Source: Agarophyton chilense
Lineage: Eukaryota > Rhodophyta > Florideophyceae > Gracilariales > Gracilariaceae
NCBI GenBank assembly: GCA_030374765.1
Contig: JARGXX010000025.1
Coordinates: forward strand, 1,260,863 to 1,324,862
Length of the DNA: 64,000 nt
Reading direction: 5' to 3'
The translations under genes were made by a program, and so were the position numbers. Every line of letters starts with the position of its first letter. The stretch's first letter is position 1. The notes under the pieces were generated by a model that saw only the letters and a program-made list of their open reading frames with translations, did no database searches and was not told where the DNA came from. Of this stretch, positions 1 to 52,709 are shown piece by piece.

Positions 1-742
1 TCCCTTCATCCTGCCCGTGGAGGGCGTCAATCCTCCCGTCGAGTCCAATCTTGTGTTGACGACCGTTTCCCCTCCTCCAGCTCCTTCGGGCGCTGCTCCT
101 CAGGGTGAACTCTCCTATGAGCTGCCCGTCGCCCAAGTGGACATCCTTCTTGGAGAGGTTACTGTCGAAGCCGCTAGTCCTGTAGGTGATTCGATGGCTC
201 TGAAATCCATTGTGAACGTCGACATTGCTCCGTCCTCTCCTTCGCCGCATTTTCTCGCTTCGCTCAAGGCTGCCGCCGCCGATCTCCCTCATGTCTGCCG
301 TACAGTTGGTATTACTGCATCGATGGACATCGCGACCGTGCTGAGGGAAGCTTGCTCTTGAGCACGTCTATCGGCGCGCTACGCCACGATTGTCCAGCAG
401 GTTCAAGATCTGGGGACGGCTATGGTCAATCTGCTGAAGCAGAATACACAAATGAGGCCCCAGAGGGTTACTGCCGACTTGGATGCCAGGTATGGTCTAA
501 ATTTGAGCGACCGGGAGGCTTTCGATGGTGACAATAGCCTCTCAGGTGAATCTTCGCCGAAGAACGGTGCTTTGCTCGATGGTGCCGGTCCTATTGGTAC
601 AGTAGGCTCCTTGGCTGATCCTAGTTCCGATTTCGCTCCCAGTGCCTCCCCAGTGAGTCCTTTTGGCGTTCGGAGCGCTTTCGCGAATCTTGAGGTCATG
701 ACGAGGGATCTTAGGCTTCTGCTAGTTAGTCAAATAAAATAA
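1..742 (+). pseudogene. Antisense ORF (aORF) of gypsy family 1 copy A, C-terminal part
   Basis: Reading frame open at the window edge, so the N-terminus lies outside. It runs in one frame to the TAA at 740-742, interrupted by one TGA at 359-361; the second copy (47,351-47,989) has TGG (Trp) there, so the stop is a point mutation. The protein has a Pro/Ala-rich segment (SPPPAPSGAAP) followed by a helical, Gln-rich region (RLSARYATIVQQVQDL) and an acidic Ser-rich tail. It is convergent with, and opposite to, the minus-strand gypsy pol that ends at 722-724. No database family is recognised. The matching copy at 46.8-48.0 kb keeps the same position relative to pol, so it is read as a component of the element and not a host gene. 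Compared with that copy it has lost some sequence near its end, which replaces the natural terminus. Confidence 0.6.
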
Positions 743-2600
743 TGCTTGTACTTTCCCAAAGTCGCTCGTGTATGCCTCCAACGTGCGTGACCCCTGACGG
801 CGTCCGAACCTTGAAAGCATCCTGAGGTCTTCCTCAGGTGTCGCCTGAGAACTGACGTTGTTCCCTGATGCGGGCGCTACGGCGGACCGTCGTGTCCGGA
901 AGTGTATTGAAAGACGTTTTGGGAGGCTGTTTGTGTTATTCGGGCCAACGGTTGCCCCCTCCTGAAGGCTGCGCTCCGCGCTGCCGATTTTTCGCCAGTA
1001 GCGGGCGATAAAATTAGCCGGAATGGTTTTGAGGATTTTGAAAAGTGTCTTCCTTTGGAGTATAGCCAAACCAACGGATGCGATAGCGCATTATCGCATC
1101 TTCTCCCCGACTGGCGGAGATGATTCGTTAAATAACGTCTTCCTGTTGGTATTCCTCCTCCGGAAGGAGAGTGTGGTCCAGAGAGGCGAATCCACGGGAG
1201 TCGGTTCAGAGAGATTGGTCATCGTCATTGGCATTGACTAGTCGGTCCGTGGGGACAGTCGTGTCCGCGGATATTGCCTTAGGAGCTGTGGGGACTTGAG
1301 CCTCGGTCTGAGGTCGGGGTGATTCTGTTGGGCCAGGGGACTGGTTCTTTGGTGTATCGGGGGAGCTGGGAGCTTGTGTCACCCGATCAATCGATACGGT
1401 GTCCTGTAGGCCGTCGATTAGTAACGTAATGGTATGTTGATTGGCTTTAAGAACTTTGTATTGTCCCAGAGATCGGTAGAAGAGCTTCTCCGTAGTGTCC
1501 TCGAAGTCCTTACTATCCCTCGGTGGCCGGTACAGTTAAACCATTTCTCCTTTCCCAAAGGTCGGTGTGTTCCGACCGGCCTTGTCGCAACTGACCTTTT
1601 AACGCCGTTGGGCTTTGGTGAGTATAGTTCTAGTCGATTGGATAATGCTGTCGATGTGTCGGCGCAAGTAGTGTTTCGCCTTAGTATGAGTCATTCCTTC
1701 GGTTATGTCCAGGAGTATAATTGACTTTTGAAGGTAAACAGCTATCGGCGGTGGCGATCTCGTGAGCGTTAAATCAAAAGGTGTTGTCCCCGTGGAAGCG
1801 TGTACTTGAGTGTTGTAGGCATAAAACGGTGTCTCAACGTAGTAGTCCCAGTCCAACTGGTGCTACGATACGTATTGTGCCAATCGGTTCAGAAGGGTAC
1901 GGTTGAAGCGATCGGCTTGGCCATTGCTTTGCGGGTGTTATGCCGTTATGGTTACATGTTTGGTACATAAGGAAGCACAAACGTGCGAAAAGAATTTGGA
2001 TACAAACTAGCTGCCATTATCCGAAAGGAGGTAGACTGGTATTTCATAGGGATATGCCCAGTGGGACAAGAATGCCGTGGCGACATCTGTGGCTGTTGTC
2101 TTTTCTAGAGGTAGGGCTCAGGTAAGTTCGGTAAACCTTTCGGTTATTACCAAGGCAAACCCTTTCCGATGGAACGACGTGGGCAAAGGTCCAATTATAT
2201 CCATCGCGACGAGTTCCATCGGCCCTGCAGCGAAGAAAAGTTTCAATTTGGTTTGATGGTTGGCGCAATATTCTCGGATTTGACCCCATGAAGTGCAGTT
2301 CCGTGCGGTTTGCCATAGGTCCTGCGCCATTAGTGGCCAGTAGAAGAACTTCCTTAGGGTCTGGTACATTCGCCCGCCTCCAGGGTGACCAGCCAAGCGA
2401 GGAAAATGGGCGAGGTATAGGAATCGCATCCTCAGTGATCCTGGTATTACCCGTTGGAGTGCGCCATCCAGTGGTTCGCGGCGGCACAGTAGTCCTAATC
2501 GGTCGTAGTCGAATAGGAATGCAGGGTTTTCTACTAATTGGGCCTTTTCCTTGCATTAATCGTCTTCGACCTGCGCCTTTAAGAGCTCCTCAATAGGTAT
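722..2600 (-). pseudogene. Integrase of gypsy family 1 copy A
   Basis: Broken over several frames. From the N-terminus (high coordinates): an H2C2 zinc-binding segment (GHPGGGRMYQ, FFYWPLMAQD) whose last Cys is Trp (NCTSW). Then the catalytic core with the first Asp in ELVAMDIIGPLP, the second in LLSDNGS, and NGQADRFNRTLL. At that last site family members have Glu; here the codon at 1911-1913 encodes Asp, so the DDE triad is altered. Further on comes the conserved AYNTQVHASTGTTPF region (1,599-1,856). A chromodomain-like end follows (YWRKIGSAERSL region, 722-1,069), which matches the better preserved copy at 48,205-48,507. Integrases of chromoviral gypsy elements insert the cDNA, and the chromodomain is thought to guide target choice. 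Frameshifts, stops and the E-to-D change argue against function. Confidence 0.75.
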
Positions 2601-2671
2601 AGGGAGGAGTTCTTTTCCTCTTGGGTTTTTACATTAACCTGAGGTGGTGTCGAATTGGGTGGTACTGTCTC

Positions 2672-12403: not shown

Positions 12404-13586
12404 TTACGTCGTTCGTTTTGAATGGAGCATTAGAGAAGGTGATAACAGAGTCTCTACGCCTGAAGGTATTGTATTTAGGGCATTACCCAAGATTGGCACG
12501 TTATTAAGGAGCCACGTGGTTATATTATAATTTGAAGAAACACATCTACTGGCCCCACATGGCCCACGATATATACATCTATGTGGCTGGCTGCGCTTTT
12601 TGTGTAGAGATCGGAGGTGATTTACGAAAGCGCAGGAAGTACGTGAAGCTTTTCCCCGCGGCTGAGGTTTTGGAATTTGTAGCTGTCGACATCCTGGGCC
12701 CACTACCGAAAACCTCAGAGACTTGCTGATTCGTGGTGATCATCACCGATCGGTTTTCCAAACTCACAAGGCCCAAACCCCTGAAGGGCACAACCTCGAC
12801 GGTCCTGGCAAGAGCTTTACTGGATAACTGAGTAAACCCGCGCGGTGCCCCAATGTACCTACTAACCGACAATGTTTCGAACTTAGCATCTACGTTCTCT
12901 GAAGCAGTATGTACCATGCTTGGGTTGAAGCATTACTTCACTACGGCGTACCATCCGCAGACGAACGCCCAAGTAGAAGGCTTCAACAAAACCCTCGTGG
13001 CCAGACTACGACACTATGTAGAAGAACATCAAACTGGACGGGCCGATTATTTGCAGCCCCTATTCCTATGCGGACAACCTTCAGGTACACCGATCTACGC
13101 AGACTACTCCCTACAATTTGGTTCTCTCACGTACACCTCATAGTATGGTCCTTCAACCAAGACTTGAGAACTACCAAGCAGCTGGTACAACTACCTCCGC
13201 TCAGGTAAAAAAAAATATACTCAACAAGCTCAGAACAACCTTGAAGGAAGCCAGTTCCAAGTTGATTGTAGCCCAAAAGCGGTATAAAGCTTACAACGAC
13301 CAAGGAGTGAAGAGGATTACCAAGGTGGAAACTGGTGACTATTCCTTCATTGATATACCTTCCTGTGGGTCGCGACCGACACCATCCGAGGAAAAAGACG
13401 ATATTCGTATTTGATGCTGACATCAAATCGAAGCCATTCCCCAAGTCTACAGGACCATATGAGGCAATCAAAGCGAATGAACACACCGTTACGGTTCGAA
13501 TGGATGGACTCCAAAACATCATATTGGTAGACCGGGTCTCAATAGAAGAGCCAGGTACGGGCATCGGCACGTCACCCAAAGGCTAA
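12404..13586 (+). pseudogene. Integrase of gypsy family 2 copy A
   Basis: Zinc-binding N-terminus with the Cys pair preserved (AGCAFCVEIGGD) after KKHIYWPHMAHD; the upstream His pair is damaged by a stop. The catalytic triad is visible: Asp in FVAVDILGPLPKT, Asp in LLTDNVSNLAST, Glu in HPQTNAQVEGFNKTL. The C-terminal GPY/F module is present (STGPYEAIKANEHTVTV, 13,335-13,586). Stop codons after SETC (12,727-12,729) and in the ARALLDN region, plus frameshifts, break it. No chromodomain follows. The stop TAA at 13,584-13,586 overlaps the stop of the opposite aORF. Confidence 0.8.
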
Positions 13587-15623
13587 TTGCTGGCAGAAGC
13601 CAATAAAGGACCAAGAGTGGTGCCGATGAGGGGATCGCTCGAAGTGTCCGCTTGCTCAACAATGGTGCTGAGCTGCGCGACGTGATGCGTGACCGCCTGG
13701 TACATGCCGGCCTGAAACGGAATACTGAAGGCAACTGCCTGATTGATAGCGTCAATATAGCTCGCGGGAAGAGGAAAGCGCTGCTCCAGGAGCGCGGGAG
13801 CATCCTGCAGGGAGCGCGGACCGGGATGGTTGGGGCGAGAGACACACACGCTCTGGATCCTCATAAGCACACCACTAATGGCAGGAGCCGTAACAGGCTC
13901 ACTACCGCTAGCTGTGGTAGGATTCACCATGAGGGATTGAGCATGCCCAGAAGAAGGAGCAGGAACCGAGCAGGGAACGCGGGTAGAAGAAAGACCAGCG
14001 AAACAAGCAGGTTCAGGTGTCGTAGGGACGGGGGGGTAATACCTTCCGGTGTCTCCATCTCATGGTTAAAAGCTGAGGGGATCCTATATACGGTTTCTGG
14101 CCTGGTAATACCCGATTCGCTTCACTGGGGATGGCTAGCTTCTCGAAGTCCCAAACGTCCCAACACTAGTCATCCTTCCACGGATGCGACAGCGACACCT
14201 CCCGGTAAGTCTCAAGCTGGGCAATGGTGTATTCCGTACCAAAGAGATTCTCATCCACACCAATGTGGCGGATAAGATCCACTGTAGAGCGAGGAAGCTG
14301 GACGATACGACCAACAGGTGAGAAACTATACTTGGTAAACCCAGGGTCGGGGCAACAGCTGTCCCAGGTGATACCGTCGCTGGAAGTTTTAAAAGCAAGA
14401 ACGGCAACAGGAGCTATCCACTCCGCGAGAGCCACAGACCAAATGGTATGATTGTACCCCTCGTGTCGGTCGCAATGGCTGCCAAAGCACGCCGGCACTG
14501 TAGGAGTTGGAACGCACAACCATTGATGTACCTCGTAGCCCGCTCACCATTGGGGACGCGTAACATATTATTTTCGGCGATTCTCTGTCGTATGAGAGAA
14601 GAACTCAGTGCAATGGAAACAATGCATGGTACGAGCGAAACTATTCTGACAGCGGATCCAGGCCTCAGTGGCAGCGTCCTCGCCCCAACGGTCACGATCC
14701 AACCAGTGAATAGTGTTGAAGGGTGTGGTGCACATTACCATTTCCAGGTTAGGCTTCAGCCACTTTGTCGATGAACCGATAGGGTGCAACAATCCCACAA
14801 GGTCGCAGAAGTAGAAGAACTCGTCGTTACACGGCAGATATGGTTGGTCGCTCAAAATGGTGTTAGGAATGAAAAACCGAAACGGCAAGTGCTGCTGACA
14901 CTTCTGAGAGCAAGCCTGTCTTCCGGGACGGGAACGATTCTCCCTTGACCGCATCGGTGGAGTTAATGGGACGGCACCAAGACGGTGGCTTTCCCAACGA
15001 TTCCATGAGGCATGACCAAAAAGGGTGGGATTCTTAAACTGCGAACCCAACCTAGCGGTGTTAATCGGGACAGGCCCAGAGGTGGCCTCCCCGTGCAGCG
15101 CCTTGACCTCCTTCGGGAGAAGACCATAAGGGTTGAGGGTTTCCGGCGGTGCTCTGAACAAGAACGGATTGTAATGCCCGGACCCAGGAGGGAACCAAAA
15201 CGCCCCATCGGTAACGGATTGGACACGAGCATGAACCCGAAAGCGGTAGCGGGTCAGAGACTTCGAGGTATTACGGCTGCGGGTCGACCCTCGAATAACC
15301 TTACCAGACATGGTGGTCAACAGTTATGAAGAGGCAGACCAACGCAGTAATGCCTCGGAGCCAAGGTCTTTGTACCCATCGACCGTAGGCTCTCCCGTCC
15401 GATGCAAACCATGACGGTCGTGCAATGTGTCTTCGGAGGTGCTCGAATTCTTCGCTGATTGAGCGAGAAAGAACCGAAGGGGCCCCATTGACACAGAAAC
15501 CACACCGGTAATCGGGTTCGACCCATGGCGAGATCCATCACCGTGCTCGGTTGAAGGAGAAGCGGAGAAGACACCAACGAGGTATGAAGTACGCCTGGCA
15601 TTGAACGCACCCGAAACCCGCAA
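13583..15623 (-). pseudogene. Antisense ORF (aORF) of gypsy family 2 copy A
   Basis: Long minus-strand coding region starting downstream of pol and running toward it. From high to low coordinates: 15,623-15,324, 15,320-14,568 and 14,519-14,166 share one frame with single stops between; a frame change leads to 13,930-13,583. It contains a Cys/His-bearing part (ACSQKCQQHLPFRFF, LPCNDEFFYFC, MHCFHCTEFF). Next is a block GRIVQLPRSTVDLI...GTEYTIAQLETY (14,312-14,205) shared with the family 1 aORF. A Pro/Ala-rich linker and a helical end (LLEQRFPLPASY, VAQLSTIVEQ) follow. The TAG stop (13,583-13,585) overlaps the integrase TAA. Function unknown. It is conserved in copy B (33,691-35,241), and no cellular homologue is recognised. 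Confidence 0.6.
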
Positions 15624-22216: not shown

Positions 22217-22484
22217 ATAGGATTAATGCCTTCGGTAGCAATAAACGTGTCTAAGCGGATGCATATGAGAGATGACCAACTCATGTTTTGCCTCTGGGTG
22301 CGAATCTTGCGGTTTGATCAGCAGGGACCAGTGGTGTTTGAATAATTGAAAACATTTCGCGATATGTGACCAAGTAGCCAAAAGAGGGCAAATGCCCAAT
22401 TGACACGACGTCGCCGGCGTTGCAGATGTGACCAACTGGAGGCCTAGGCTTAGGCATTGGTACCCACTACCATTGCACCTCCTA

Positions 22485-32855: not shown

Positions 32856-34036
32856 AGGTTACCTATTACGTCGTTGTTTTTGAATGGAGCATTACAGAAG
32901 TTGATACCAGAGTCTCTACGCCTGAAGGTATTGTATTTAGGGCATTACCCAAGATTGGCACGTTATTAAGGAGCAACATGGTTATATTATACTTTGAAGA
33001 AACACATCTACTGGCCCCACATGGCCCACGATATTTACATCTATGTGGCTGGCTGCGCTTTTTGTGTAGAGATCGGAGGTGATTTACGAAGGCGCAGGAA
33101 GTACCTGAAGCTTTTCCCCGCGGCTGAGATTTTGGAATTTGTAGCTGTCGACATCCTGGGCCCACTACCGAAAACCTCAGAGACTTGCTGATTCGTGGTG
33201 ATCACCACCGATTGGTTTTCCAAACTCACAAGGCCCAAACCCCTGAAGGGCACACCCTCGACGGTCTTGGCAAGAGCTTTACTGGATAACTGAGTAAACC
33301 CGCGCGGTGCCCCAATGTACCTACTAACCGACAATGTTTCGAACTTAGCATCTACGTTCTCTGAAGCAGTATGTACCATGCTTGGGTTGAATCATTACTT
33401 CACTACGGCGTACCATCAGCAGACGAACGCCCAAGTAGAACGCTTCAACAAAACCCTCGTGGCCAGACTACGACACTATGTAGAAGAACACCAAACTGGA
33501 CGGGCTGATTATTTGCAGCCCCTATTCCTATGCGGACAACCTTCAGGTACATCGATCTACCTACAATTTGGTTCTCTCACGTTCACCTCATAGTATTGTC
33601 CTTCAACCAAGACCTGAGAACTACCAAGCAGCTGGTACAATTATCTCCGCTCAGGTCAAAAAAGTTATACTCAACAAGCTCAGAACAACGTTAAAGGAAG
33701 CCAGTTCCAAGTTGAAAGTAGCCCAAAAACGGTATAAAGCTTACTACGACCAAGGAGTGAAGAAGATTACCAAGGTGGGAACTGGTGACTATGCCTTCAT
33801 TGATATACCTTCCTGTGGGTCGCGATCGACACCACCCGAAGAAAAAGACGATATTCGTATTTGATGCTGACATCAAGTCGAAGCCATTCCCCAAGTCTAC
33901 AGGACCATATTGGGCAATCAGAGCGATTGAAAAAACCGTTACGGTTCGAATGGATGGACTCGAAAACATCGTATTGGTAGACCGGGTCTCACTAGAAGAG
34001 CCAGGTACCGGCATCAGCACGTTACCCGCAGGGTAG
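32852..34036 (+). pseudogene. Integrase of family 2 copy B
   Basis: Zinc part AGCAFCVEIGGD after KKHIYWPHMAHD. Core residues: FVAVDILGPLPKT (Asp), LLTDNVSNLAST (Asp), HQQTNAQVERFNKTL (Glu). GPY/F-like end STGPYWAIRAIEKTVTV. The same stops as copy A after SETC and in ARALLDN show the two copies descend from an already broken element. A 12-nt deletion near 33,560 separates them. Confidence 0.8.
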
Positions 34037-35241
34037 TTGCTGGCAGAAGCCCATAAAGGACCAAGATTGGTTCCGATGAGGGGATCGCTCGAATTGTCTG
34101 CTTGCTCCACAATGGTGCTGAGCTCCGAGACGTCATGCGTGACCGCCTGGTATATCTCGGCCTGAAAGCGATTACGGAAGGCAACCGCCTTGTTCATAGC
34201 GGCAATATAGCTCGCGGGAAGAGGAAAGCGCTGCTCCAGGAGCGTGAGAGCATCCTGCAGGGAGCGCAGACCGGGATGGTTGAGGCGAGGAGCACACAAG
34301 CTCTGAATCCTGATAAGCACACCACTTATGGCAGGAGCCGTAACAGGCTCACCATCGCTAGCTGTGGTAGTATCCACCATGAATGATTGCGCAGGCCCAG
34401 CAGAAGGAGCAGGAACCGAACGGGGAACGCGAGTAGAAGAAAGACCAGCGAAACAAGCAGGTGCAGGTGTCGTAGGGACGTGGGTAATACCTTCCGGAGT
34501 CTCCATCTCATGGTTAAAGGGCTGAGGGGATCCTCCAGTCGGTTTCTCGCCTGGTAATACCCGATTCGCTTCACTGGTATGGCTAGCTTCTCGAAGTCCC
34601 AAACCTCCCAGCATTGGTCATCCTTCTACGAATGCGACAGCGACATCTCCAGGTAGGTCTCCAGCTGGGCAACGGTGTATTCCGTACCAAACATAATCTC
34701 ATCCACACCAATCTGTCTGATAAGATCCACTGTAGAGCGAGGAAGCTGGAAGATACGACCAACAGGTGGGAAACCACACTTGTTAACCGCAAGGTCGGGG
34801 CAACAGCTGTCCCAGGTGATACCGTCTCGAACAGCTTCAACAGCTAAAAAGGCAACAGGAACGGCCCACTCCGCGAGAGACAAGGACCAAATGGTATGAT
34901 TTCACCCCTCGTGTCGGTTGCAATGGCTGCCGAAGTATGCCAGCCAGCACTGGAGGAGTTGAAACGCACAACCATTGAAGTACCTCGTAGCCCGCTCACC
35001 ATTCGGGACGGACAACATACCATTTGCAGCGATTCTCCGTTGTCTGAGAGAAGGCTTCAGTGAAATGGAAACCATGCATGGTACGGACGAGACTATTCCG
35101 ACAGCGGATCAGGGCCTCGGTGGCAGTGTCCCCGCCACAAAGGTCACGATCCAACCAGTGAATAGTGTTGAAGGATGTGTTGATCATTACCATTTCCGGG
35201 TTAGGCTTCAGCCACTTTGTCGATGAACCGACACGATACAA
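33691..35241 (-). pseudogene. Antisense ORF (aORF) of gypsy family 2 copy B, N-terminally truncated
   Basis: 34,614-33,691 is a continuous 307-codon frame. It includes the Pro/Ala-rich part (VPAPSAGPAQSF) and the helical end (LLEQRFPLPASYIAAMNKA, VSELSTIVEQADNSSDP). The native stop seen in copy A (TAG at 13,583) reads TAC here, so the frame runs about 110 codons on into sequence antisense to integrase. Upstream on minus, 34,883-34,626 holds GRIFQLPRSTVDLI and GTEYTVAQLETY; 35,241-34,996 matches the PSFNTIHWLDRD-type region of copy A. The N-terminal half is missing because the copia-like element adjoins. Confidence 0.6.
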
Positions 35242-36455
35242 TAATGCCTATTTGCAATAGGCCAGTTATAATTCCCAGTTATCCAACATCATCGATACGA
35301 AATGCATCAGAGAATATGACAATACTGAGCTCGTAGTCAGCTTCGTCAGTTGGCCTTGGAAAAGCGATAACGATGTTTAGCTTCTTAAGCTTTCTGACCG
35401 TGTTGATTTGTTCATTCAAGTGCCTCACGCAGATGTCAGTTGCTTTCTGTTAAAGATAGCTGCTATAGAATGAGCACAGCGATGGACCGGCAGTCCCTAT
35501 CCAGATCAATGAGCTGCTGATTGATGCAAATGCGGACTTCTAAAACTTGTTGAGACTTTCTGCAGACTCTTTTCGTCGCGCGCGAGATGGGATATTTCAT
35601 GACACCTTCCAGCTTGTCTTCGGCGTTTGTCTCGATTGTGAAATCACATTTTTGGATGGTGTTAATTCCAAAGAACAGTAGTTCTCCTGGGCCATTGTTG
35701 ATGAAGCCAAACTTAAACTTATCATTGAAGGCTTCTAGAAACATTTTTGCACGGTCTCCTTCGCCAGCCACTTTGAGATCATCTATGATTTTGGCTACTA
35801 TCAGAACCGTTCTTTCATTCTCTTTCTGGTAGAAGAGCTGCGGTATATTTGCAGACTGTGAGAGGCAAATTTGTCGCATCATGGTGTCAAACGCATTCTG
35901 CCACTTCACGTTGGCTTTCACCAATCCATAGGCAGCAGCCAAATCTAGCCAAACATGAGTAGACTTTATTCTACCTTCTTTGGATGGCCTTACGTATACA
36001 TCCCTCTGCGCCTCTCCCGTTTGTAGAAAAGAAGCTGTTACATCGCCCTCGTGTAGCGTCAAGCCACGAAGTGACGCTATTGATTCCAGGATGCGAAGAC
36101 CGGTAGGAAGGCAAGTTGCACAGTCTTAGCAATTCCCATGTTTCATGTCATCCTCATTGCCATGCAGTGCGATACGGGCTTTACGGGCTTTAAGTTTCAG
36201 GGAACCGTCATCATTATGTTTGGTCTTATATAGGGTATGACTACTTATGACGTTGGAGCCGGGCGGAACGAGCCGGCAAAACACTGGCTCAAAAGTTTTG
36301 AGGAAGCTGTCTTCTTCTTTGGTGTACGAAGTGTACATTGGATACTGATCAAACACTTGTGCCAGATGTTGAAGGAAAGGCTTCTTTACGAAGTGATCAA
36401 GCATTGATTTGAAAACTTTTTCTTCTTTGATTACCACTTTCAGTGGCACAGCCAC
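35242..36455 (-). pseudogene. Copia-like reverse transcriptase - RNase H
   Basis: 36,126-36,455 holds the RT start (SSHTLYKTKHNDDGSLK, then KARKARIALHGNED). 36,062-35,463 holds LHEGDVTASFLQTGEAQRDV, LFYQKENERTVLIVAKIIDD (the YVDD-equivalent region) and LLFFGINTIQK. 35,460-35,260 has a decayed RNase H start (FSDAF). This is the copia order with integrase upstream of RT. The gene ends at the junction with gypsy family 2 near 35,240, so the C-terminus and 3' LTR are missing. In-frame stops and frameshifts are present. Confidence 0.75.
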
Positions 36456-40841: not shown

Positions 40842-42420
40842 TATGTACCATCAAACCACATAACTTTTGTCGTTTCAAAAACTAAAAGAAAACCGAACTG
40901 TTAAGCTGAGAGAATAACGACGAAAACGCGAGGTGCTAGTCTTACAACTGCTTCAGAATGTTTTTTGTGTTTTTTTGCACGCCCTTTTTGCACGCTTTTG
41001 AACGCGTTTGAAGTGGCCTGCATGTGTTCAGTTGGGCTACAAGCGATCTACAGTATGTGGCTGCGTCTTGGGCAACATATAGAATGCGATTTCGAATATA
41101 ACAAAGAGATTGGTGCGAATATCGAAGGTACAACAGCGCATGTGCGCTTGAGCCCCGGTATTTTTATTGGCTACTATTTGTACGTCGATTACGCCATGAA
41201 CTTGCATCCCTGGTGTCGGTTTTGCCTACCCGTTAGTGTAGAGACCATCTTAACACTCTCTTTCCCTTCATAGTTCTCTCTTGGCTCTGTCGTCAATGCT
41301 CTTTCCAGTTTCGTGCCTCTAGAATTTCCGTACCGCTGCAAGCGTCGACGCATCCCTCAACGGTTGGCTCATGGAGATGCCGGCCAGAGGTGAATCGCAC
41401 GGCCAGCAGGTGGTCTTCCTCAGATAATCTCAGATGAAATGAGTGGAAAAGAACGTGTCAATGAATAATCTTCCTGCAGTAATACCCTGTAATGATCTTG
41501 TAGAATGCAAACTTGGCAATAAGGAGATAAATTTGGCCTACTGCCGCTCAGACTCACTGCTTTGCGCGCGTACAGGTCTACGGGCAACTTCCGAGAACTC
41601 TGCTTACTGAAAGCTTACAATCTTTATGATAGGAAGATTTTGCATTTGCGTGGATGTCAAGCTTGTGCTTATTATCTCATCCCTTACTTGAATCTTCTTA
41701 CCCAGGGCTCATCTTCTGAACATTAGTGATGCATTCCATGATAAAATAGCCCATGTATCATCTATTTGGAGAAACATCAATTCATTGTGATTCAGATCTG
41801 GGAGGATCGGCCATCCGCAACTAAACCTTGGTTCCTGTCACGATGGTTGGCTTGTGCTCCACTACACTTCTCTTCAACTTCGTTCACATGTATGTCCGGG
41901 AAAGTGTTTTCCTACCCAGTGAAATGAAGGAAGCTGGTACAGGTCGGCTTCGCACAATCTCGGCCATCTGATCCGAGAGCCACTGGATGCGTCAAATCTC
42001 AGCCTCGGTTTCTACAATAAGACCCATACAATTCAGTACTTTGTGTTGCTGCTTGAAACAGAAAACCAGAATTCAAAGCAGCCCTAATGGTTGATCTGAC
42101 TTTCCGTACTCATTTGATCAAGCTTCCGTCAAAATGCTTCAGCTTGTTCGCGTTTGCGCCGATGAGAATACCTGTTAATGAATTGTCAAGGTATTGGGGG
42201 AAATCAATCACTGGCGTATTTCGTGGAGGCTCATGGTAACCATTTTGTTGCCTTTCGAAATGCGCCGCACCCTTTTTGCCTCTCCAACTACAGCTTGTGA
42301 ATGCCATGTTTTGCTGATAGTCACGCTCACCTTTTGCTGATGTTGACTCACTTTCATACTTCCTCCGCTCGCGTTCTGCCAAGCAGGAATGTCGCGGTTC
42401 TTTGTGTACGTGGTACCATT

Positions 42421-42450
42421 TATGGAAACTTCATCTTCCGTATAAAAGGC
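42421..42450 (+). promoter_or_regulatory. Core promoter candidate of zinc-finger gene B (TATA box)
   Basis: TATGGAAACTTCATCTTCCG followed directly by TATAAAAGGC (42,441-42,450), about 170 nt before the ATG at 42,613. The upstream word and the TATA position are shared by all three paralogues, though only this copy has a canonical TATAAAA. Confidence 0.55.
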
Positions 42451-42612
42451 AGGTTCTTACTTTGCTCCTCCCATCGACAGGTGCCAGGTTGCCCTTCGCC
42501 ACGCTAAAGTTTCACTACTACTACTCGCTGAGAACATCTGAATCACTCTTCGGCACCAGTTACGTTTCTGTTGATTAGGACGATTTGTTTCACATTTTCT
42601 CTTTAAACAATA

Positions 42613-43920
42613 ATGAGCTCTCTACCGAAGCTAAACATTGACAATCTTCTAAAGGTTGAAAATGGAGAGAGTCTGACTTCCCCAGTAACGCCGGCCACTG
42701 AGGGGAAGAAAACGGAACCTGCCAAAACGGAACCTGCCAAAACGGAACCGGCAAAAACGGAACCGGCAAAAACGGAACATGCGAAAACGGAACTGGTCGA
42801 AGGCGAACCGGAGAAGAAACGCCGACGGGTGGGGGGCCTCCCGGTGAGTGCTCTCGTCAATGAGAAGAACGAAGAGACCCCCATCTCGTGTTCCTACCCA
42901 GTTGCCTACTTGCCCCCCATTCAAGTCGATCCGGTCACTCCAGGACGGCCAAGGTTCCCGTCTATTCTCTATCAAATGTCAGAGTTTGTGACGCAGCTTG
43001 AGGAGAGGTCCGTGAATGGCACTCTACCGTCAATAACGTCGCTTGGATTGCTTTCCTTTGAAGAACTGGCGGCTGGTATTGTTGCAACAAAGTCGCTTGG
43101 TGTTTCTTCGACAAAATCAGCTGATGGCAATCCCTCTCGAGAGCAAACGTCTATGCTAGAGCCCGACAGGAATCATGGAGATGTCGGAGACGAGAATATA
43201 GTGCCTTCGGAGAATGGAAACAATCTGTCCGACAACGAACCTCCCAGAGAGCCAAAAACGCTGCGCCTAAAGCGTTCTCGGGGTGAACGTGACAGACCTG
43301 TAACCACGCAACCGGAGATTGAAAGTCTCATTAGGACGTTACGTGAACAGGAGAAAAGTCGAAGAGAGGAAGGGAATAGGGATGGAGCCTCCAATTCGTC
43401 CCAGGCAGAGGAAGAGGGAGAGGACAGGGCTCCGAACAGGACTCGAACTCCTACAACAGCAGATGGAAAGAGCCTGAGCCCCACCGTTTCGAGAAGTCGC
43501 GGAGTGACCAAGCAGGGAACGCACAGAAGAGGTCGTCCTAATGGGGACAATAGGCCTAGACCCTTTTCTTGTCCGTCTTGTCAAAGACGATTTCACCAAC
43601 AGAGCGGGGTAGTTAGCCACTATCGCGTAGTGCACCTGAGAGAGAAGCGTTTCGAATGTCCTCACAAATGTGGGCTACGCTTCGGTGCGCGTGGGGATGT
43701 CACAAGACACGTCGATGCAGTGCACAACAAGATTCGCAACTTCGAATGCCAGGTTTGCGGAGATGCGTTTGCTCGAAAGAGCATTCTCACAAGGCATTGC
43801 AAAAACATGCACAACGATACATTCGGGGCGGACGAAGCCCATGACTGTGTGCATGGATGTGTGTTCAGGCCAAGGAACAGGGCGGACAAAGAAGAGGAGG
43901 TAGAAGAAGAGCAGAAGTAG
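42613..43920 (+). CDS. C2H2 zinc-finger protein B, 435 aa
   Basis: Intact single-exon ORF nearly identical to protein A. Same N-terminal block, a longer Lys-Thr-Glu-Pro-Ala repeat, KKRRRV nuclear signal, LYQMSEFV motif, charged linker, three C2H2 fingers with all Cys and His present, and an acidic tail (RADKEEEVEEEQK). Amino-acid differences cluster in the repeat and in the charged linker (REQEKSRREEGN versus RERERSRKQEEN), while the fingers are unchanged. This suggests constraint on DNA binding or simply recent duplication. Canonical TATA box upstream. Probable nuclear regulator; targets unknown. Confidence 0.9.
   Translation: MSSLPKLNIDNLLKVENGESLTSPVTPATEGKKTEPAKTEPAKTEPAKTEPAKTEHAKTELVEGEPEKKRRRVGGLPVSALVNEKNEETPISCSYPVAYLPPIQVDPVTPGRPRFPSILYQMSEFVTQLEERSVNGTLPSITSLGLLSFEELAAGIVATKSLGVSSTKSADGNPSREQTSMLEPDRNHGDVGDENIVPSENGNNLSDNEPPREPKTLRLKRSRGERDRPVTTQPEIESLIRTLREQEKSRREEGNRDGASNSSQAEEEGEDRAPNRTRTPTTADGKSLSPTVSRSRGVTKQGTHRRGRPNGDNRPRPFSCPSCQRRFHQQSGVVSHYRVVHLREKRFECPHKCGLRFGARGDVTRHVDAVHNKIRNFECQVCGDAFARKSILTRHCKNMHNDTFGADEAHDCVHGCVFRPRNRADKEEEVEEEQK
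42708..42796 (+). repeat. In-frame 15-nt tandem repeat (TEPAK) in zinc-finger gene B
   Basis: Six units of about AAAACGGAACCGGCC, including one His variant (EHA) and the terminal ELV unit; two more than in copy A. Confidence 0.85.
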
Positions 43921-44903
43921 AGTGCGATTATCTTCTTGATGTAACCTTATGCGTGATATATCAGTAGCTGTAGAGTTAGAATATTAGATAGATCCCGCCA
44001 TAAATTGTAATAAACGTTGTAGGACTTGTGTCATGTTGATGAGACTGGGACCCGTGGTGGAAGTGCATCCGTACGGGTTTGACGACAGCCACCGCACCAT
44101 TCTCAAGAAAAGCGAGAGGCGAGTCGGAAATGATAGCAAACTTCCACTGGACAGTTGGGCCGGTGACTCGGAAGGGCGGCATGACCGATGCGATGAAAGA
44201 TCAAAAAGCGGACTTGTGGAGGTGTAGTTGTCCGCGTTATGCCACACCACCGTTCGCATCAGATGGCATAAGACTATCGGGTGCAATCTGCGGGTTGCCT
44301 TCCCTTCAACAGTTTGGAGTGACATGTTGCGCATCAAGCAATATGAGCCAAGGCGATTGCGATTCGCAGGAAGCAAATCACATCTTCCACTTTCCCCTCC
44401 AAGACAAAAAGTGATGCAGAGATGCGAATAACCGTGCATCAACTCCTCTAGTTTCGAAAGGCAGTCGGTGTGATTGTCGTGATGCGGTACTTTTCTCAAC
44501 TTCAACTCCTTCTCTTTCTGGCAATGGTGCATCCGCTCACCCCATTAGTGCATCGTACACATCTTTGCAAGGGTCAACCAATGGTAAAACTTCATAGGGC
44601 GACACGGATGTTGAAGATGCACATGCGCAAATGTCAAAGACGGTTTGAGAAGGCTAACTGGAGAGCGACCTTGTTTTCGGCCAACCGGTTGTGTTATTCT
44701 TTTCTGCTCCCTACAAGAACTGCCGCTGTCTTTCATGGCGGAGCACTTCGAATGACTTGTCATCTGAATGGCAATGTGGTTGGTGTGGTTTTCCAGAATT
44801 ATCCCAATCAAGAACTCTTTTGTTGGAAAACATGCAGCTCTCGATGATCGACCTGTCTGGAGAACGTGTTATTCTGCCTGCGAGCACGGGTCTTCGTAGT
44901 TAG
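43921..44903 (+). pseudogene. Degraded coding remnants downstream of zinc-finger gene B
   Basis: Counterpart of 21,059-22,216. The BED-like frame (44,079-44,414) and the terminal frame (44,691-44,903) are kept. The UBR-box-like part is reduced to KGSRCDCRDAVLF-type remains because of the 178-nt difference. No intact gene. Confidence 0.3.
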
Positions 44904-45190
44904 ATAGGATTAATGCCTTCGGTAGCAATAAACGTGTCCAAGCGGATGCATATGAGGGATGACCAATTCATGTTTTGCTTCTGGGTACGAATCTTGCGGT
45001 TTGATCAGCAGGGACCAGTGGTGTTTGAATAATTGAAAACATTTCGTGATATGTGACCAAGTAGCCAAAAGAGGGCAAATGCCCAATTGACACGACGTCG
45101 CCGGCGTCGCAGATGTGACCAACCAGAGGCCTAGGCTCAGACATTGGTACCCACTACCATTGCACCTCCTAGTGTCTATAGTTGTAATTC

Positions 45191-45765: not shown

Positions 45766-46650
45766 GTGAATTCATTAAGCCCTTCAACTGTGATAAAAAG
45801 TTACATTCAAGGAAGCTATATGGAAGTTCATTCGACAAAATGGAAAATGAAAAATGTGCCTTTGACTTTGAATAGTCCAATGCAAACTCACCAACGGAAA
45901 GTAACGGGAACTGTTGGAGATTTAATTTATGCCATTCATGCACCCTCGAAACTCTCTCTATACGATTTATTCACGCGGATGTTTCCTGTAGATCATTGGA
46001 AAAACATAGTTCGATCTACTAACTCTCGGCTGGAAGGAAACAGCTCAATGAAGACTACAGGAGGTGAAAGGTTGACGTTTCTCGGCTTGGCGGTGTTAAT
46101 GACACCCTTTGATTTTTCAAATGGAAGATCACTTTGGTGTTAAGGCAAGTTCTTTTAATATATTGAATCTCCAAAGCTCGAAAAGATCATGTTACGCAAT
46201 CGCTTTGAACACATACGGCAATTTATCGTGTTCTGTGGCGCTGAAAACGATCAAAAATCAGAATAATTCAGATAATCATGCGTTTCTGAGTTTGTGAAAG
46301 CTATAAATGACCATCGGAAATCATTTCTAACTCCGTCACACACTTTGTTCGTGGACGAAAGTATGTCACGAAGGTCTGGAATCGGCGAAAACTGGATTGA
46401 GATTGGACTTCCACACTTCACTGCTCTTGATAGGAAACCTGAAAATGGTCGTGAATTTAAGACAGTGTGTTGTAAAAGCAGTGGAATTATTATCAAAATA
46501 GAAACCTTGATGGGAGCTACGCAACCAGATGTATGGTCTTTTGAATCGAAACATGCGCATGGAACAGCTGTTTTGACGAGACTTGTTGAAAATTGGTTCG
46601 CAACTGATCGAATAGTTTATGCCGATTCATTTTTTGCATCTGTGTGGATG
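45766..46650 (+). pseudogene. piggyBac-type transposase fragment
   Basis: First frame 45,766-46,143: LYDLFTRMFPVDHWKNIV, then TGGERLTFLGLAVLMT and GRSLW. After a frame break, MLRNRFEHIRQFIVFCG (about 46,190-46,240). The next open frame is 46,294-46,650: LFVDESMSRRSGIGENWI (first catalytic Asp), ALDRKPENGREFKTVC and RIVYADSFFASV (second catalytic Asp). These are the hallmarks of the DDE_Tnp_1_7 (PGBD/piggyBac) family. The frame then runs into unrelated family 1 sequence near 46,650, so the C-terminus is lost. Confidence 0.65.
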
Positions 46651-46689
46651 AGAACCAATGGGCTCTCTACTGGCGTATCTAGCTGCCCC

Positions 46690-47989
46690 TGTTGGTTCCC
46701 ACGCCGTCCGTAGTGGCGTATCATTCGTCCCAACTCATGGGCAATGACAATGACCGAAGGTCTTGTGTGTCCGGGCAGGTACTCTTCGTTCAGTTCGGCG
46801 TGATTTCCCTTATGGCCTTCCTGATATCGCAAAATAAGGCGTTCGTGGTAATGTCCGTTCGAAGGACTGGAGGATATGGTACAATGAGAACATACCCGGT
46901 CCTCAAGGTCGCCTAATCCCGCTCCCGGACATCTTGATCCGCTTTTCAAGGAACCTGTGCATCCCGAATATCGTCCGTGGGACCCAGTTCGACGTCGGGC
47001 AGACCGAGGCTTTTTTGAACCATGTCCTACAGGTGTAGTGGGGCAAGAATTCCGGGTTCCTTTGGTATGGCCACGATACCGACTCATTCACACCGATTCC
47101 GCTACATCCGCAGGGTCGCCACCACGCTCGTGCTTATCCCACCAAGCCTTTGAGAAATCAATCATCGGACATCCCCAGGCGTCATGTGCCCGACTATTAT
47201 CCGAAGGCCATTGGCTTCGATCCCCTGTGCTTCGAGACTCATGTGGAAGCCACGCCGTGGGTTCATGCTGGTATGTCCGATGGATAATCCTTCGGTGAAG
47301 ATCCCTTCGTACTACCCGTAGAGGGCGTTAATCCTCCGGTCGATTTCGCTGTGGTGTTGCCGACCGCTTCCCCTCCTCCAGCTCCTCCGGGCGCTGGTCC
47401 TCAGGATGACCTTTCTTATGAGCCGCCCGTCGCCCAGGTGGATATCCCTCCCGGCGGGGTCACTGTCCAGACCGGAAGTCTTGTAGGTGATTCACTGGCT
47501 CAAACGTTCATTGGGGGCGTCGACATCGCTCCGTCCTCTCCGTTACCACACTTTCCCGCTTCGGTCACGGTTGCGGCTTCGGATCTCCGTCATGTCTGCC
47601 GTTCCGTTGGTATTAATGCCTCGATGGACATTGAGACAGTCCTGAGGGAAGCTTGCTCCTGGGCGCGTCTCTCGGCGCGCTACGCCGCGGTTGTCCAACA
47701 GGGTCAGGACCTGAAGACCGCCATGGTCAATATCCAGCAGCAGAATGCCCAATTGATGTCCCAGAGGGTTACTGCCGACTTGGATGCCCAGTATGGTCTA
47801 AATTTGAGTGACCGAAAGGCTTTTGTTGGTGACAATACTTCCTCAGGCGAATCTCCGCCGAAGAAGCGTGCTCGGCTCGCTTGGGCCGGTCCTAGTGGTC
47901 CAAATGGCTCCTCGGGTGACCTTAGTTCAGATTTGGCTCCTGGAGGTTCCAATGAGGACGACGGAGTTACTCCTGTGCCGCCTCAGTGA
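46690..47989 (+). pseudogene. Antisense ORF (aORF) of gypsy family 1 copy B
   Basis: One plus-strand frame is readable from about 46,790 to the TGA at 47,987-47,989, with stops after DIAK, LQV and MSDG. The N-terminal part includes SKDWRIWYNENIPGP, GRLIPLPDILIRF (46,907) and GTQFDVGQTEAF (46,979-47,014), which aligns with the family 2 aORF. Then comes HVPDYYPKAIGFDPLCFETH, a Pro-rich linker (ASPPPAPPGAGP), a helical Gln-rich region (RYAAVVQQGQDLKTAM) and a basic PPKKRARLAW patch like a nuclear signal. Pol of the same element is on minus just downstream (48,205-48,507), so the genes converge. Function unknown. Confidence 0.6.
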
Positions 47990-48204: not shown

Positions 48205-48530
48205 CTACGACGAACCGTCGTGCGTGCTACGGTGAATCGTCGTGTCAGAAGGCGGTTTGGGATTCTTTGGACCAACAGTTGCGCCCTCCTGAAGGCTGCG
48301 CCCCGTGCTGCAGATTTTGTGCCAATAGCGGGCGGTGAAAGTAGCCGGAATGGTTTGAGGCTCTCGCCAAGTGTCTTCCTCAGGTGTGTAGCCGAACCAA
48401 CAGACGCGGCACCGTATATTTCTATCTTCTCCCCGACCGGCGGAGATGATGCGCTCAGTCACATATTCCAGTTGGCAATCATTCTCCCGCAAGAGAGTGT
48501 GGTCCACAGGGGCGAATCCATCGGAGTCGT
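48205..48530 (-). pseudogene. Integrase C-terminal chromodomain-like segment, family 1 copy B
   Basis: CRVCWFGYTPEEDTWREPQ matches the chromodomain core (Tyr/Trp-Lys-Gly-Tyr...EEDTWEP). It is followed by FTARYWHKICSTGRSLQEGA, which aligns with the copy A end at 722-1,069. Only this last part of pol remains; homology stops near 48,530. This identifies family 1 as a chromovirus-like gypsy element. Confidence 0.65.
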
Positions 48531-49378
48531 GTAGTATCCGCTCTAACGGAGAGAGCAGACACCTGCGACGGCGTTCAGACTGCCGATGGGTCGCTTGCGG
48601 CGAAGGAAAAGGGGTGGTAGAGCTACACCACCAGCGAGCTGGAAGTGGGGTGTAAGGCCACTACTCGCCAGCGAGGGTGAACAGTGCAACTGTAAAACGT
48701 TGATGGGACGTAGGTACGAGACGGCTCGTGAAGTGGTTGGGGGCTGACTATCTATTATAGCTGGTCCGGATCTCCGGTTAAGGAATCCGAAGCGAGGAAC
48801 AGAATAGTCATGATGCCCATGTTGTCTCATTTACTTGGAGTCGGCGCTCACCTCTGGTACACTATATACTGTGTGCCAGGGTGAGTGCCCAAATAATACG
48901 TAAATAATACCCAGTGCTTAGCCATTTAGCCAAACCATTGTATGGGTACGGTCCCTAGTGGACTTAAATCTACAAAGGGTAGTAAAACCAGCCACGTGGA
49001 TCGCCACTACATGCGCCGTTGCAAGCCACTCCACTCGTCATGCCACGTGTTCCAACAATGTACCCTGCCTTCTGGCATCCTACGCGGTGTGTCGCTTCTT
49101 ATCCTAGCACTGACCAGGCCACTCAGTAATGAGTTCCAAACGCAACTTTGCGACAAAGAAACCATCGGAACGCCGAAGTAGTAGAATACTACAGAATCCC
49201 TTAGAAATAATTGAGCTGACCACTGGAAAGAAGAATTATACAGATTCTAGACTTTGGTTTAATTTCCCAACGGACCAGAAGTACAGAAGCAACCGCCATC
49301 ATGGATGCAAGAAACACACCCAACTGACCAGACCATAGGACTCCTACCGCAGAACAGGTTGCGACTACAACGCCGAAG
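48531..49378. other. Noncoding junction / possible LTR and leader of family 1 plus-strand piece
   Basis: No coding signal. The right part (from about 49,200, GCTGACCACTGGAAAGAAG) matches the family 1 leader upstream of gag in copy A. The part before it does not match 7,159-7,960, so either the LTR is a different variant or it has been replaced. Confidence 0.35.
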
Positions 49379-51518
49379 ATGTCGCCCGGCCCTCAGGTTG
49401 ATGCCGTGAGCGACCGCAGAAGCACGAGAAGCCAACCGCAAGAAGTACTGACCCCCATGGCTAACCCTGAAAGGATTCGCGGAGAACCCACGGTGGCAGG
49501 GCGTTTACGGGAACGCCTCACCCGGTCCACCTCTAGACCAGGGACCCCTCAAGGAGAAACCCACCAGATCGAAGGTATTAGAGAAAACATGCCCGCAGGC
49601 CTTTCCGACCTTCTCTGGCCCCGTCTCCGTGAGCTCTGCTGAAACCATGTGGATTCCATTGTAGAAATGCGACCCGCTACGGCGATCGCTGACCATACGG
49701 ATTACCTCATTACGCGAATAATCCCTAAGGTAACGGAGTCTGGATTATTCATAGACTCCTTCCTACAGGCCGTTCAAAGAGCAGTCACCCGCCAGGCAGG
49801 CAATTTGGACCCTAAGACCACTCCACCACAAATTAACAAACCGGTCTCCATATGGAAACCCCCTACCGAACCCCCAGGAGTGGCGGTATTATCCGCCCCT
49901 CGCCGGGAATACCATCAGGAAACCCCAATGGTGGGACAATATAGGAGCGGAACAGAAGCTTCGCGTCTAAATGAATGACAGATTCCCATCAGGAAAAGCC
50001 AAGCGAGGAGAAAGAGAGGAGCGAAAGGGAAGCTCCGCGTCTAGAAGAGAGACCGCTTGCCCCACCCGACGGATTATATGAGTTACAGCGACCTCAGGGC
50101 TGCATCGGATCTGATAGAGAGATCGATCCTTTAGGGCCCTATTCCGCTGTAATGAAAAGAAGCAACCGCAGGAGAAAGAAAAACAGAAGAAGTAAAATAA
50201 GAGACCATTCGGATACGAGTGATTCCAAATCGGCCTCGACCGAAACGACCGTTGCGGAAGTGGATGAGGCTGCCACTCGAGGCCTCAGCCCCCTGAAAAC
50301 AACTAACGAACTTTTCCTTAAGGTTCTAGACTACCGGAATTATCGGCTGGCCGACAGGTCCCCGAAATATTCTGGTTCGTTGGCTGGCAGATTCGCCAAA
50401 TGGACCAAACAGATGCAACTAACCATTACGGACAAGTTCTCGGGTTCCGATCCCATTGCTGTCCTTAGGTTTCTCATTTTTTCCCGTACGACCTGCGATC
50501 AGAACGGTGTTCACGAGTGCGGCGCTCTGTACCTTTTCCAATTCTTCCTCACAGGACAGGCGCGTGACCGAGTGGTTTCGAAGATATCTGGCACAACTGA
50601 CCTCGTGGATGCTCAAGACCGTGAACTCCTCAGGTCATACCCTCAGGTTGTTCATTAACTCTTGGAAACCTACGCCACGGATGACGTCATTATGGACGCC
50701 CACCAAGAAGTAATCTCCTTTAGGCAGAGCTCCAAAATGACAGATTCGGCTTTCGCAGACGACCTATGGAAAAAGGCTTACCGATGTGGAAATGTATTCT
50801 CCGAAGGATGGCTCAAACGTCATTTCATCACGGGATTACTCCCTGCCATTCGGACACATGTCCGCAATTATCTCACAGAAAACCCACAATACTCCTTCCG
50901 AAGGCTCGTTACCTATGCCGAGGATTATGGCAAAACTTACAGGACTTCCAGGCGGAATGCTGATAAATCCAGGGGACACGCAACTCCATTGCGTACACCA
51001 AACCAAGCCCATTTGGTTAGCTCCATTATGCCGATTCGGGAGATGTACTCGAGGTCGATTTCAGTGCTCCTCCGTCTGGGCCCCCATCATATACCTCCCA
51101 GAGAACTACAGCGACCACTGGACCACCCTATCCCAAGTATTCTCCCTTTCCGCCCTGCGAGGGCGTTTTTGTTCGCCCCCTAAGGGCTTGCTTCCTCTGC
51201 CTTTCCATAGCCCTACCTTGTGACTGCACGAGTCATCTACCTGGGGACGCACGAAAAAACCTCCTAGCCCTCAGGGAACAGAATTACCGGGTGCGGAGAT
51301 CCGAAGGAATGTTTAACAGGGCACAGCAACGAACCACAGGGACCCCTGGAAGCTCACGTTCTGCCACACTTCCGGACACTCCAATCAAAGCCCGACAGGT
51401 CCACGCCATTATATATCCTACGGACGACCTCGAAAAGAAATTTTATCCTCAGGAAGAAACGGAAACACCACCGAAAAACCCTTGGAGGGTCGACGCGAGG
51501 CAAATCTTCCCTTTTTAA
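49379..51518 (+). pseudogene. Gag of gypsy family 1 copy B
   Basis: Start at the ATG 49,379. 49,379-49,978 (one internal TGA at 49,640-49,642, where copy A has a Ser codon) includes MPAGLSDLLWPRLREL and DYLITRIIPKVTESGLF. After a frame change, 49,975-51,183 (one TAA at 50,656-50,658, where copy A has Tyr) contains KQMQLTITDKFSGSDPIAVL, GALYLFQFFLTGQARDRV, SAFADDLWKKAYRCGNVF and FITGLLPAIRTHVRNYL, a retrotransposon capsid-like helical core. A basic stretch (RSNRRRKKNRRSK) precedes the core. 51,291-51,518 encodes the C-terminal tail. Confidence 0.7.
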
Positions 51519-51676
51519 GCCCCTGCCTCAACCAATTCGACATTCATGTACCAAAGAGCTCTTAACCCCCCAATACCAACCACCCAGCATGGAGAACTCA
51601 GGTTGAACCACAATTTGAACACAGTAACGACCCTGTCTGTATCCTCGGGAAAGAGAACTAAAAAGCTCTAGTAACC

Positions 51677-51871
51677 GTGGGACTTCATTCCAATCTCTCT
51701 CGAGTGACCACAGCCGTATTAGACACAGGCGCTGGTCCCAACTTGGTCCATCCTAAGCTACTCCCACTGGGTTGGCAAGATTTCGTTCAGGGAAATAATT
51801 CCCCCAGGATTACCGATGCATCACGTAGACCAATAAACATTAAAGGGATAGTACCACTTTACATACACTGA
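51677..51871 (+). pseudogene. Aspartic protease N-terminal part, family 1 copy B
   Basis: VTTAVLDTGAGPNLVHPKLL has the intact Asp-Thr-Gly site. The frame ends at a TGA (51,869-51,871) and no RT follows, so the element is truncated shortly after the protease start. Confidence 0.7.
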
Positions 51872-52709
51872 GGACGATTCATAGTCTGCTCCCCAGTGCG
51901 CAGCATGTGTCCATTCTCAGTTCCGATCTGGTTCGAAATAAGAACCCTTCTCCACAATCAAGACAGATGATTGTTGGATATGGACGCTTGTTTCTTTCAG
52001 TTTCGGACAGATAGAACACCGAATTGTGACCTTATCAGGTCCATTAACTCTCCAATACAACACATATTTCACACCATTTAGGTTCTAGTTCTGGACATAG
52101 TTTACTCGTAAAATCCACCGAAAGGGGCCTTCTCCAGTCCCACTTCTTATGAAGATGATAGTCTCCAAGCTCTCCCATACAAAGATGGAATTTCCCTCAC
52201 TTAGACTTACTTAGACGAAAAAACTACTTTGTATGATCAAAACTGTATCGCATCTAGAACTCACACTTGATGCAAGTCAAGCAATGAACAACTACAACCA
52301 TTTCGTACACCAAGAACCGCCTCATCCAGATTTCAAATCGTACCGTTCGCCCAATCTATGGTGATACATACGAACTTCATGGTAACACAAAGTTAATCGG
52401 GTGTCCTGACACATTGAAATCAAAAGAACGATAGTTGGTTAGTCTGGTGAGGCGTATGAGGTTCTAATCATGGTTGCAAACGGGAGGAACTCACTGTACG
52501 TACTCCGTGGTTGGCGATAGCACCATAAACGCTATGTTGAATATGCTTCGCAATAGAGTAATTTTGAACATGATATCGTTTGCGAAAGGTTAGGGACCTG
52601 GAGCAGTTCGAGGTGTTAGCCAGCAGAGCCCGCATAAATCAATGAAGGCGAATGTACTTACAATAGGAAACATGTCATTAGCAACACGACAGGACTATCA
52701 CAAAGTCTC
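51872..52709. other. Noncoding junction region
   Basis: No ORF or motif supported. It must contain the boundary between the truncated family 1 element and the CACTA-type unit, but no CACTA terminal inverted repeat was identified by eye. Confidence 0.35.

Follow-up and report, generated by a model that had tools for sequence, protein, structure and literature searches.

Ty3/gypsy families of the red alga Agarophyton chilense carry a common antisense accessory gene behind the integrase, a finding that we consider confirmed by the analyses presented here. The protein family encoded by this gene (aORF) is found with intact frames in three diverged element families and with remnants in two more, far from the flowering plants, which marks such antisense genes as a recurrent solution rather than an oddity. 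The conserved core of the protein and a lineage of the same genome in which no aORF was found (one copy examined) provide concrete targets for further work, and an aORF profile helps to annotate loci that are at present called 'unnamed protein product' (11 such proteins). The window, i.e. the whole stretch of DNA that was analysed, comprises 64,000 nucleotides (C25:1260863-1324862); the genome searched comprises 79.8 Mb in 135 contigs.

Antisense frames in the window

The original prediction had assigned long antisense ORFs with a shared block to two gypsy families. Both of them, here termed F1 and F2 (with subfamily F2a in the window), do carry an aORF; the number of families, however, was set too low, as at least five pol families carry the gene, two of them (F4 and F5) in the form of remnants. 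The window contains the following features.

2..739, plus strand: C-terminal part of a second F1 aORF copy, cut by the start of the window, 66-71% identical to intact F1 copies
1266..2612, minus strand: integrase region of the pol of this second F1 copy (tblastn), grouping with the F1 integrases
12466..13544, plus strand: integrase of F2a copy A with its GPY/F end; no match to the longer F2 tail
13586..15323, minus strand: copy A of the F2a aORF, split into three frame pieces (14,571-15,323; 14,169-14,543; 13,586-14,059)
32928..33994, plus strand: integrase of F2a copy B with its GPY/F end; no match to the longer F2 tail
33694..35247, minus strand: copy B of the F2a aORF, split into three frame pieces (34,999-35,247; 34,629-34,901; 33,694-34,617)
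46294..46650, plus strand: piggyBac-type transposase fragment (Pfam DDE_Tnp_1_7, PF13843, E=4.8e-9)
46647..46823, plus strand: upstream-frame fragment of the F1 aORF, residues 303-361 of the L028 frame (tblastn, 73% identity), with a stop at 46,680
46823..47986, plus strand: remainder of the F1 aORF, interrupted by stops at 46,835, 47,036 and 47,285 and 75% identical to L028 (tblastn, E=9e-175); it contains the shared block (46,907-47,014) and a SPPKKRARL-type basic motif
48205..48507, minus strand: chromodomain-like terminus of the F1 pol frame, facing the aORF tail to tail and by eye the same as L015:125-742

The shared block itself had been located correctly, with GRLIPLPD at 46,907 (plus strand) in F1 and GRIVQLPRS at 14,312 (minus strand) in F2a copy A. 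For copy B the position (34,760, minus strand) holds, while the letters read GRIFQLPRS instead of the expected GRIVQLPRS. The second motif is found as GTQFDVGQTEAF at 46,979 (plus strand) in F1, as GTEYTIAQLETY at 14,240 (minus strand) in F2a copy A and as GTEYTVAQLETY at 34,688 (minus strand) in F2a copy B, and its spacing from the Gly of GR amounts to the predicted 72 bases (24 codons) in all three copies. The stretch 46,690-47,989 does not form a single ORF: the F1 copy shifts frame once (near 46,823) and is interrupted by four in-frame stops (46,680; 46,835; 47,036; 47,285). This copy (46,647-47,986) is without its N-terminal half, with similarity to the full protein setting in at 46,647. 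Its N-terminal border coincides with the end of a piggyBac-type transposase fragment, which replaces the missing half; the DDE_Tnp_1_7 match was taken on window positions 46294-46710 (residues 2-117) and the border at 46650 from the aORF similarity. Piggybac-type fragments (PF13843) that directly adjoin the truncated F1 aORF extend over 45,766-46,710. The pol of this copy is represented by its chromodomain-like end alone; no integrase core was found for it within the window, and the piece at 48,205-48,507 (minus strand) obtains no Chromo score in Pfam.

Between the F1 copy and F2a copy A of the window, the best match falls in the aORF frames; with E=0.003 over 47 columns, it is not significant given that 36 frame pairs were tried. 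The window copies are decayed, and the motif match between them is correct but thin.

Several repeats were observed in and around these elements. The F1 block (46,838-47,035) recurs with 100% protein identity at C25:1238727, C58:10287 and C113:1042090, and the F2a block (34,629-34,901) with 100% at C58:22420 and C113:998307 and with 97% at C25:1226280; the F1 blocks on C25 are spaced by about 69 kb. This recurrence looks like recent large duplications of the region or an assembly duplication. C2H2 zinc-finger matches were obtained for two ORFs of 425 and 435 aa (19,781-21,058 and 42,613-43,920), both of which reside within a 95-96% identical repeat (17,266-22,484 versus 40,082-45,171), and the stretches 49,193-51,891 and 4,491-7,141 constitute an inverted pair (80-92%). 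By eye, the copy at 49-52 kb is gag- and protease-like, lies on the plus strand and belongs to a gypsy element other than the adjoining F1 remnant; a 227-aa frame at 49,975 has no match in Pfam.

A coding frame shared by F1 and F2

A genome search with the 66-aa F1 block returned copies of 65-100% identity (best 150 of 384 first-look candidates) with open frames of up to 748 codons. The search with the 91-aa F2a block (best 150 of 316 first-look candidates, 41-100% identity) exposed a subfamily, F2b, with frames of up to 861 codons, and a further query, blended from several F2b copies, found matches of 83-97% identity (best 150 of 1562 first-look candidates). Intact aORF frames comprise 682 codons in F1 (L028, counted from the proposed Met), 666 codons in F2b (L071) and 536 codons in a third family, F3 (L083). 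All three are devoid of stops in the aORF frame, compared to 7-32 stops in each other frame (12-32 in the case of L028 and L071).

The intact F1 and F2b frames L028 and L071 match each other with E=7e-19 (24% over 418 columns) in the frame pair f0/f0, with the next best of the 36 pairs at 0.004, and a second intact pair, L014 (F1) and L076 (F2b), behaves alike (E=4e-17; next best frame pair 0.002). On the DNA level, the best BLASTN match between L028 and L071 has an E-value of 0.14. The decayed F2a copy A of the window is recognized by intact F1 frames as well (L014, E=2.4e-7; L028, E=1e-11) and is 37% identical to F2b L071 (E=2e-60). In a profile-profile comparison (hhalign), which had been set beforehand as one of two refutation tests, F1 and F2 align with E=3.3e-17 and a probability of 98.9%. 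Both this value and the match between the intact F1 and F2b frames corroborate the proposed homology of the two proteins. Since the protein has been kept while DNA similarity has been lost, the aORF has to be regarded as a real and old gene. We are almost certain that it codes for protein, and common descent of the F1 and F2 aORFs is practically beyond doubt.

Selection on the antisense frame

To quantify selection, the second of these refutation tests, pairwise dN/dS values (NG86) were determined for 26 F1 loci (325 pairs), leaving out L009-L012, which are identical in the 66-aa block and include the window copy. In line with the expected purifying selection on the antisense frame, the median dN/dS of the F1 aORF frame, biased downwards by the choice of copies by protein similarity, is 0.43 (0.428), the lowest of the six frames in 305 of 325 pairs. 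The mirror antisense frame r2 shows a median of 0.526, with the aORF frame below it in 307 pairs, and the other four frames range from 0.95 to 1.2. For F2b and F2a we obtained medians of 0.584 (7 loci, 21 pairs) and 0.567 (27 loci, 345 pairs), respectively, in both of which neutral decay after insertion is included. The single F3 DNA pair (dN/dS 0.89 at dS 0.05, not the lowest frame) consists of copies that have diverged too little for selection to be visible.

Along the protein, the lowest pN/pS of any segment (0.32) falls into the conserved core in both F1 and F2b. In F1, this segment contains the shared GR block; in F2b it is located just before the block, whose own segment reaches 0.45, and the F2b linker shows a value of 1.01. 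Segments situated entirely or largely ahead of the proposed start positions yield 0.72-0.93, which supports starts at MPKSP (F1) and MSGSG (F2b).

Position relative to pol

The aORF had been described as lying antisense and immediately downstream of the integrase. This arrangement recurs in the genome: among the pairs listed within 8 kb, 43 of 50 have the aORF on the opposite strand, 2.1-3.4 kb past the integrase core, the distance being measured between the lowest coordinates of both matches. Five of the nine listed F1 pairs and 11 of the 12 listed F2b pairs are opposite-strand at 2.1-2.55 kb downstream; the five exceptions among these 21 comprise three same-strand F1 pairs, one upstream F1 pair and one upstream F2b pair. 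For F3, 27 of 29 listed pairs are opposite-strand at 2.4-3.4 kb, and the remaining two are cross-pairs of two neighbouring elements. At least 43 of 150 scored integrase cores have an aORF partner, the other 107 being without one among the matches listed.

An F2b element on C3 is bounded by two LTRs of 638 bp (1290098-1290735 and 1300683-1301320; 91.85% identity). Between them are located pol, in which Pfam recognizes RNase H and integrase, long upstream frames and, beside the 3' LTR, the aORF. Here, pol ends before the aORF begins. The aORF is oriented tail to tail with pol and, in this one F2b element, situated between pol and the 3' LTR. An LTR pair was also sought for the F1 copy L014, and none was found. 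The aORF of L014 contains, at about codon 70, a dispersed repeat of ~445 bp (L014:130-577; also L078:2250-2691 and L079:5150-5491).

Further families and a lineage in which the gene was not found

The F3 aORF was found downstream of other gypsy pols; the L083 copy and its relative in L082 are antisense and located past the end of pol.

L083:367-1974, minus strand: F3 aORF, 536 aa

In the genome, F3 matches show 86-100% identity (best 112 of 1714 first-look candidates), and its database relatives include P0014 (52%) and P0015 (37%). A joint F1 and F2 profile aligns with F3 at E=1.9e-6 (probability 89.5%, hhalign); F2 alone reaches E=1.1e-4 (57%) and F1 alone E=0.0018 (15%), while single-family comparisons with only three F3 sequences gave E=0.0021 and 0.59. 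Common descent of the F3 aORF with those of F1 and F2 is very probable.

F4 (L084) is decayed, with similarity to F3 (E=1.6e-22) and to F2 (P0005, E=5.8e-4). The F5 remnants (L085 and L086) correspond to an F1-like C-terminal half (E=3e-18 and 1e-16) and adjoin pols whose frames span 1421 and 1307 codons; the conserved aORF core was not found in the stretch examined. These F5 loci, beside C4:337440 and C95:773371, combine such pol frames with the C-terminal half of the aORF alone, and F5 could provide examples of families that are losing the aORF core. A distant gypsy lineage, F6 (L006/L087, one copy), shows no aORF relative at E<=1 within ~4.5 kb downstream of its integrase core, where an unrelated antisense frame of 181 codons is present.

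Pol relationships and origin of the gene

For the carriers F1-F5 and for F6, 165 integrase residues were aligned and a maximum-likelihood (ML) tree was computed. Between families, the integrases of the carriers show 38-71% identity (42-71% if the window copies are left out), compared to 17-24% between F6 and all carriers. Among F1, F2b and F3, identity amounts to about 42-53% in the integrase core and to about a quarter in the aORF. As far as such identities can tell, the integrase similarity would fit vertical descent with one gain before the families split. The tree places the long F6 branch beside F2 (support 0.76); because F6 is the single non-carrier tip, all carriers necessarily share one side of the tree, which therefore provides no test of a single gain. 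The F4 integrase resembles that of F1/F5 (60-70% identity, versus 50-52% to F3) while its aORF is F3-like, which makes module exchange possible. The aORF had been suggested to be an old or transferred module: it is old; vertical descent would suit the integrase identities, and the F4 mix leaves room for transfer.

The two families had also been distinguished by the end of their integrase, chromodomain-like in family 1 and GPY/F only in family 2. In F1, the pol tail (L015:125-742) matches Pfam Chromo (PF00385) above cut-off (E=5.2e-6). For family 2, the description applies to the window copies but not to the family, in which 19 of 31 F2-type loci (the window's own L039 and L044 included) match the longer F2b tail at E<=0.01, a few of them weakly. 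This tail is chromodomain-like by eye and is not called as Chromo by Pfam.

It is conceivable, at slightly less than even likelihood, that the group represents ambisense three-gene chromodomain gypsy elements, in which one ancestral gain of the backward gene, kept under selection while the families diverged, provided a defining nuclear gene independent of the plant Retand type and encoding a protein superfamily not described before. Our confidence in this reading was lowered because one non-carrier tip cannot test a single gain.

The aORF protein

The protein consists of ~550-680 aa, in which a conserved core of ~200-260 aa follows a variable N-terminus and leads into a Pro/Ala-rich linker and a helix-rich C-terminal part; linker and helical end, both noted in the original prediction, are visible by eye in the alignment. 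Inspection by eye further reveals a basic, NLS-like PPKKRARL-type motif at the end of the F1 protein and an RGRGRGG-rich stretch at the start of the F2b protein. The aORF proteins scanned show no Pfam family at trusted level, no NCBIfam or PHROGs match and no convincing PDB relative. The C-terminal helix pair of F3 is weakly Ish1-like, with values below cut-off on an isolated 45-aa piece of P0014 (E=0.0028) and on a piece of P0007 (E=0.054), and no such pair was detected in P0015 or P0013. A structure model of P0014, fairly confident over about residues 270-430 and 502-541 only, gave no fold match.

Database searches, each of which scored about 8000 candidates, provided 14 relatives, and the 11 that are named are without exception called 'unnamed protein product [Agarophyton chilense]'; plant proteins were not among the matches. 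P0005, a 263-aa ORF from a TRINITY transcriptome assembly, is 62% identical to the F2b core, which shows that an aORF relative is present in the assembled RNA of some species, on one strand or the other. As far as these searches reach, the aORF protein family appears to be new.

Possible function and alternative explanations

Our preferred interpretation, which we put forward tentatively, is an antisense accessory gene encoding a nuclear regulator. The aORF would have a promoter of its own beside the 3' LTR, and its protein might enter the nucleus, as the basic PPKKRARL motif of F1 and the weakly Ish1-like helix pair of F3 suggest. There, it could act in trans on the chromatin, the mRNA or the integration complex of its own element, the most likely effect being that silencing is countered or expression tuned, with HBZ and the proposals made for Grande and Retand serving as models. 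The basis of this nuclear mechanism is analogy, one basic motif (F1 only) and one sub-threshold domain match.

Alternatively, the aORF might encode a structural or particle-associated protein (a second gag-like, a nucleocapsid-chaperone or an env-like protein), which would be translated from antisense mRNA and become part of the particle in the cytoplasm. The length of the protein and its low-complexity linker are compatible with such a role, the RGRGRGG-rich start of F2b could bind RNA, and retroviral env likewise lies between pol and the 3' LTR (PMC7264820). Still, we consider a structural role unlikely, as no Pfam capsid, zinc-knuckle or env-like match occurs in the proteins scanned, the antisense orientation would bar expression from genomic RNA, and F1 possesses an NLS-like motif.

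That the aORF originated as a host gene taken up by the elements, or as a foreign element nested in them, and was gained independently by the families or exchanged between them seems improbable to us. Gene capture is known for LTR elements (PMC7264820), and the combination of an F1/F5-like integrase with an F3-like aORF in F4 could mean module exchange; yet the database and domain searches with the aORF proteins returned no host-gene relative or domain, and place and orientation are the same in all five carrying families examined.

Even less credit can be given to the view, already disfavoured, that the antisense transcript matters, through double-stranded RNA or blocked pol read-through, with the protein as a mere passenger. 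While roles of antisense RNA have been considered for elements of plants and insects (PMC7264820) and tail-to-tail genes could yield overlapping 3' ends, the similarity of F1 and F2b is clear only in the f0/f0 frame pair, with DNA similarity gone, and dN/dS is lowest in the aORF frame.

Finally, a chance or shadow ORF opposite constrained sense sequence is refuted by frame-pair comparison, stops and six-frame dN/dS: a reduced value like that of the mirror frame r2 (0.526) would accompany any coding frame as its shadow, whichever strand it is on, and the aORF frame falls below it in 307 of 325 pairs, r2 contains 14-25 stops in the three intact copies and reaches only E=0.004-0.015 between F1 and F2b, and the pol of the F2b element does not extend to the aORF.

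Comparison with known systems

The antisense accessory gene family is of a known kind in its architecture. Antisense ORFs of plant Ty3/gypsy elements (aORF-3R) include gene23 of Grande, those of RIRE2, ORF4 of Retand and ORF2 of PvRetro13 (PMC7264820). Their role in Grande, RIRE2 and Retand is presented as still open, with a regulatory role proposed by others for Grande and Retand (PMC7264820, PMC11963269). Like these ORFs, the red-algal aORF runs antisense to gag-pol, occurs in many copies with a conserved protein and, in the F2b element whose LTRs were found, occupies the stretch between pol and the 3' LTR. For the Grande antisense protein a nuclear location has been reported (PMC7264820), which the red-algal protein may share.

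Unlike the plant aORF-3R elements, the elements described here reside in a red-algal host. No red-algal counterpart was met in the literature among the titles and abstract openings listed, a scope that leaves most subscription papers outside and is not proof of absence. In contrast to Retand, a non-chromovirus, F1 is a chromodomain gypsy element, with Chromo (PF00385) above cut-off in the L015 tail. Moreover, the TRP28 domain (PF04195) of the Retand antisense ORF is undetected in the red-algal aORF proteins: PF04195 had no match in those scanned, and a six-frame search of the genome gave one match below cut-off (E=0.05), in a 99-aa frame at a locus without F1/F2b aORF similarity.

Outside plants, Boty of the fungus Botrytis cinerea likewise has an antisense ORF between pol and the 3' LTR (cited in PMC7264820), a likeness in position and orientation. 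As a model of mechanism, HBZ of HTLV-1 is an antisense retroviral gene that encodes a nuclear protein (cited in PMC11963269).
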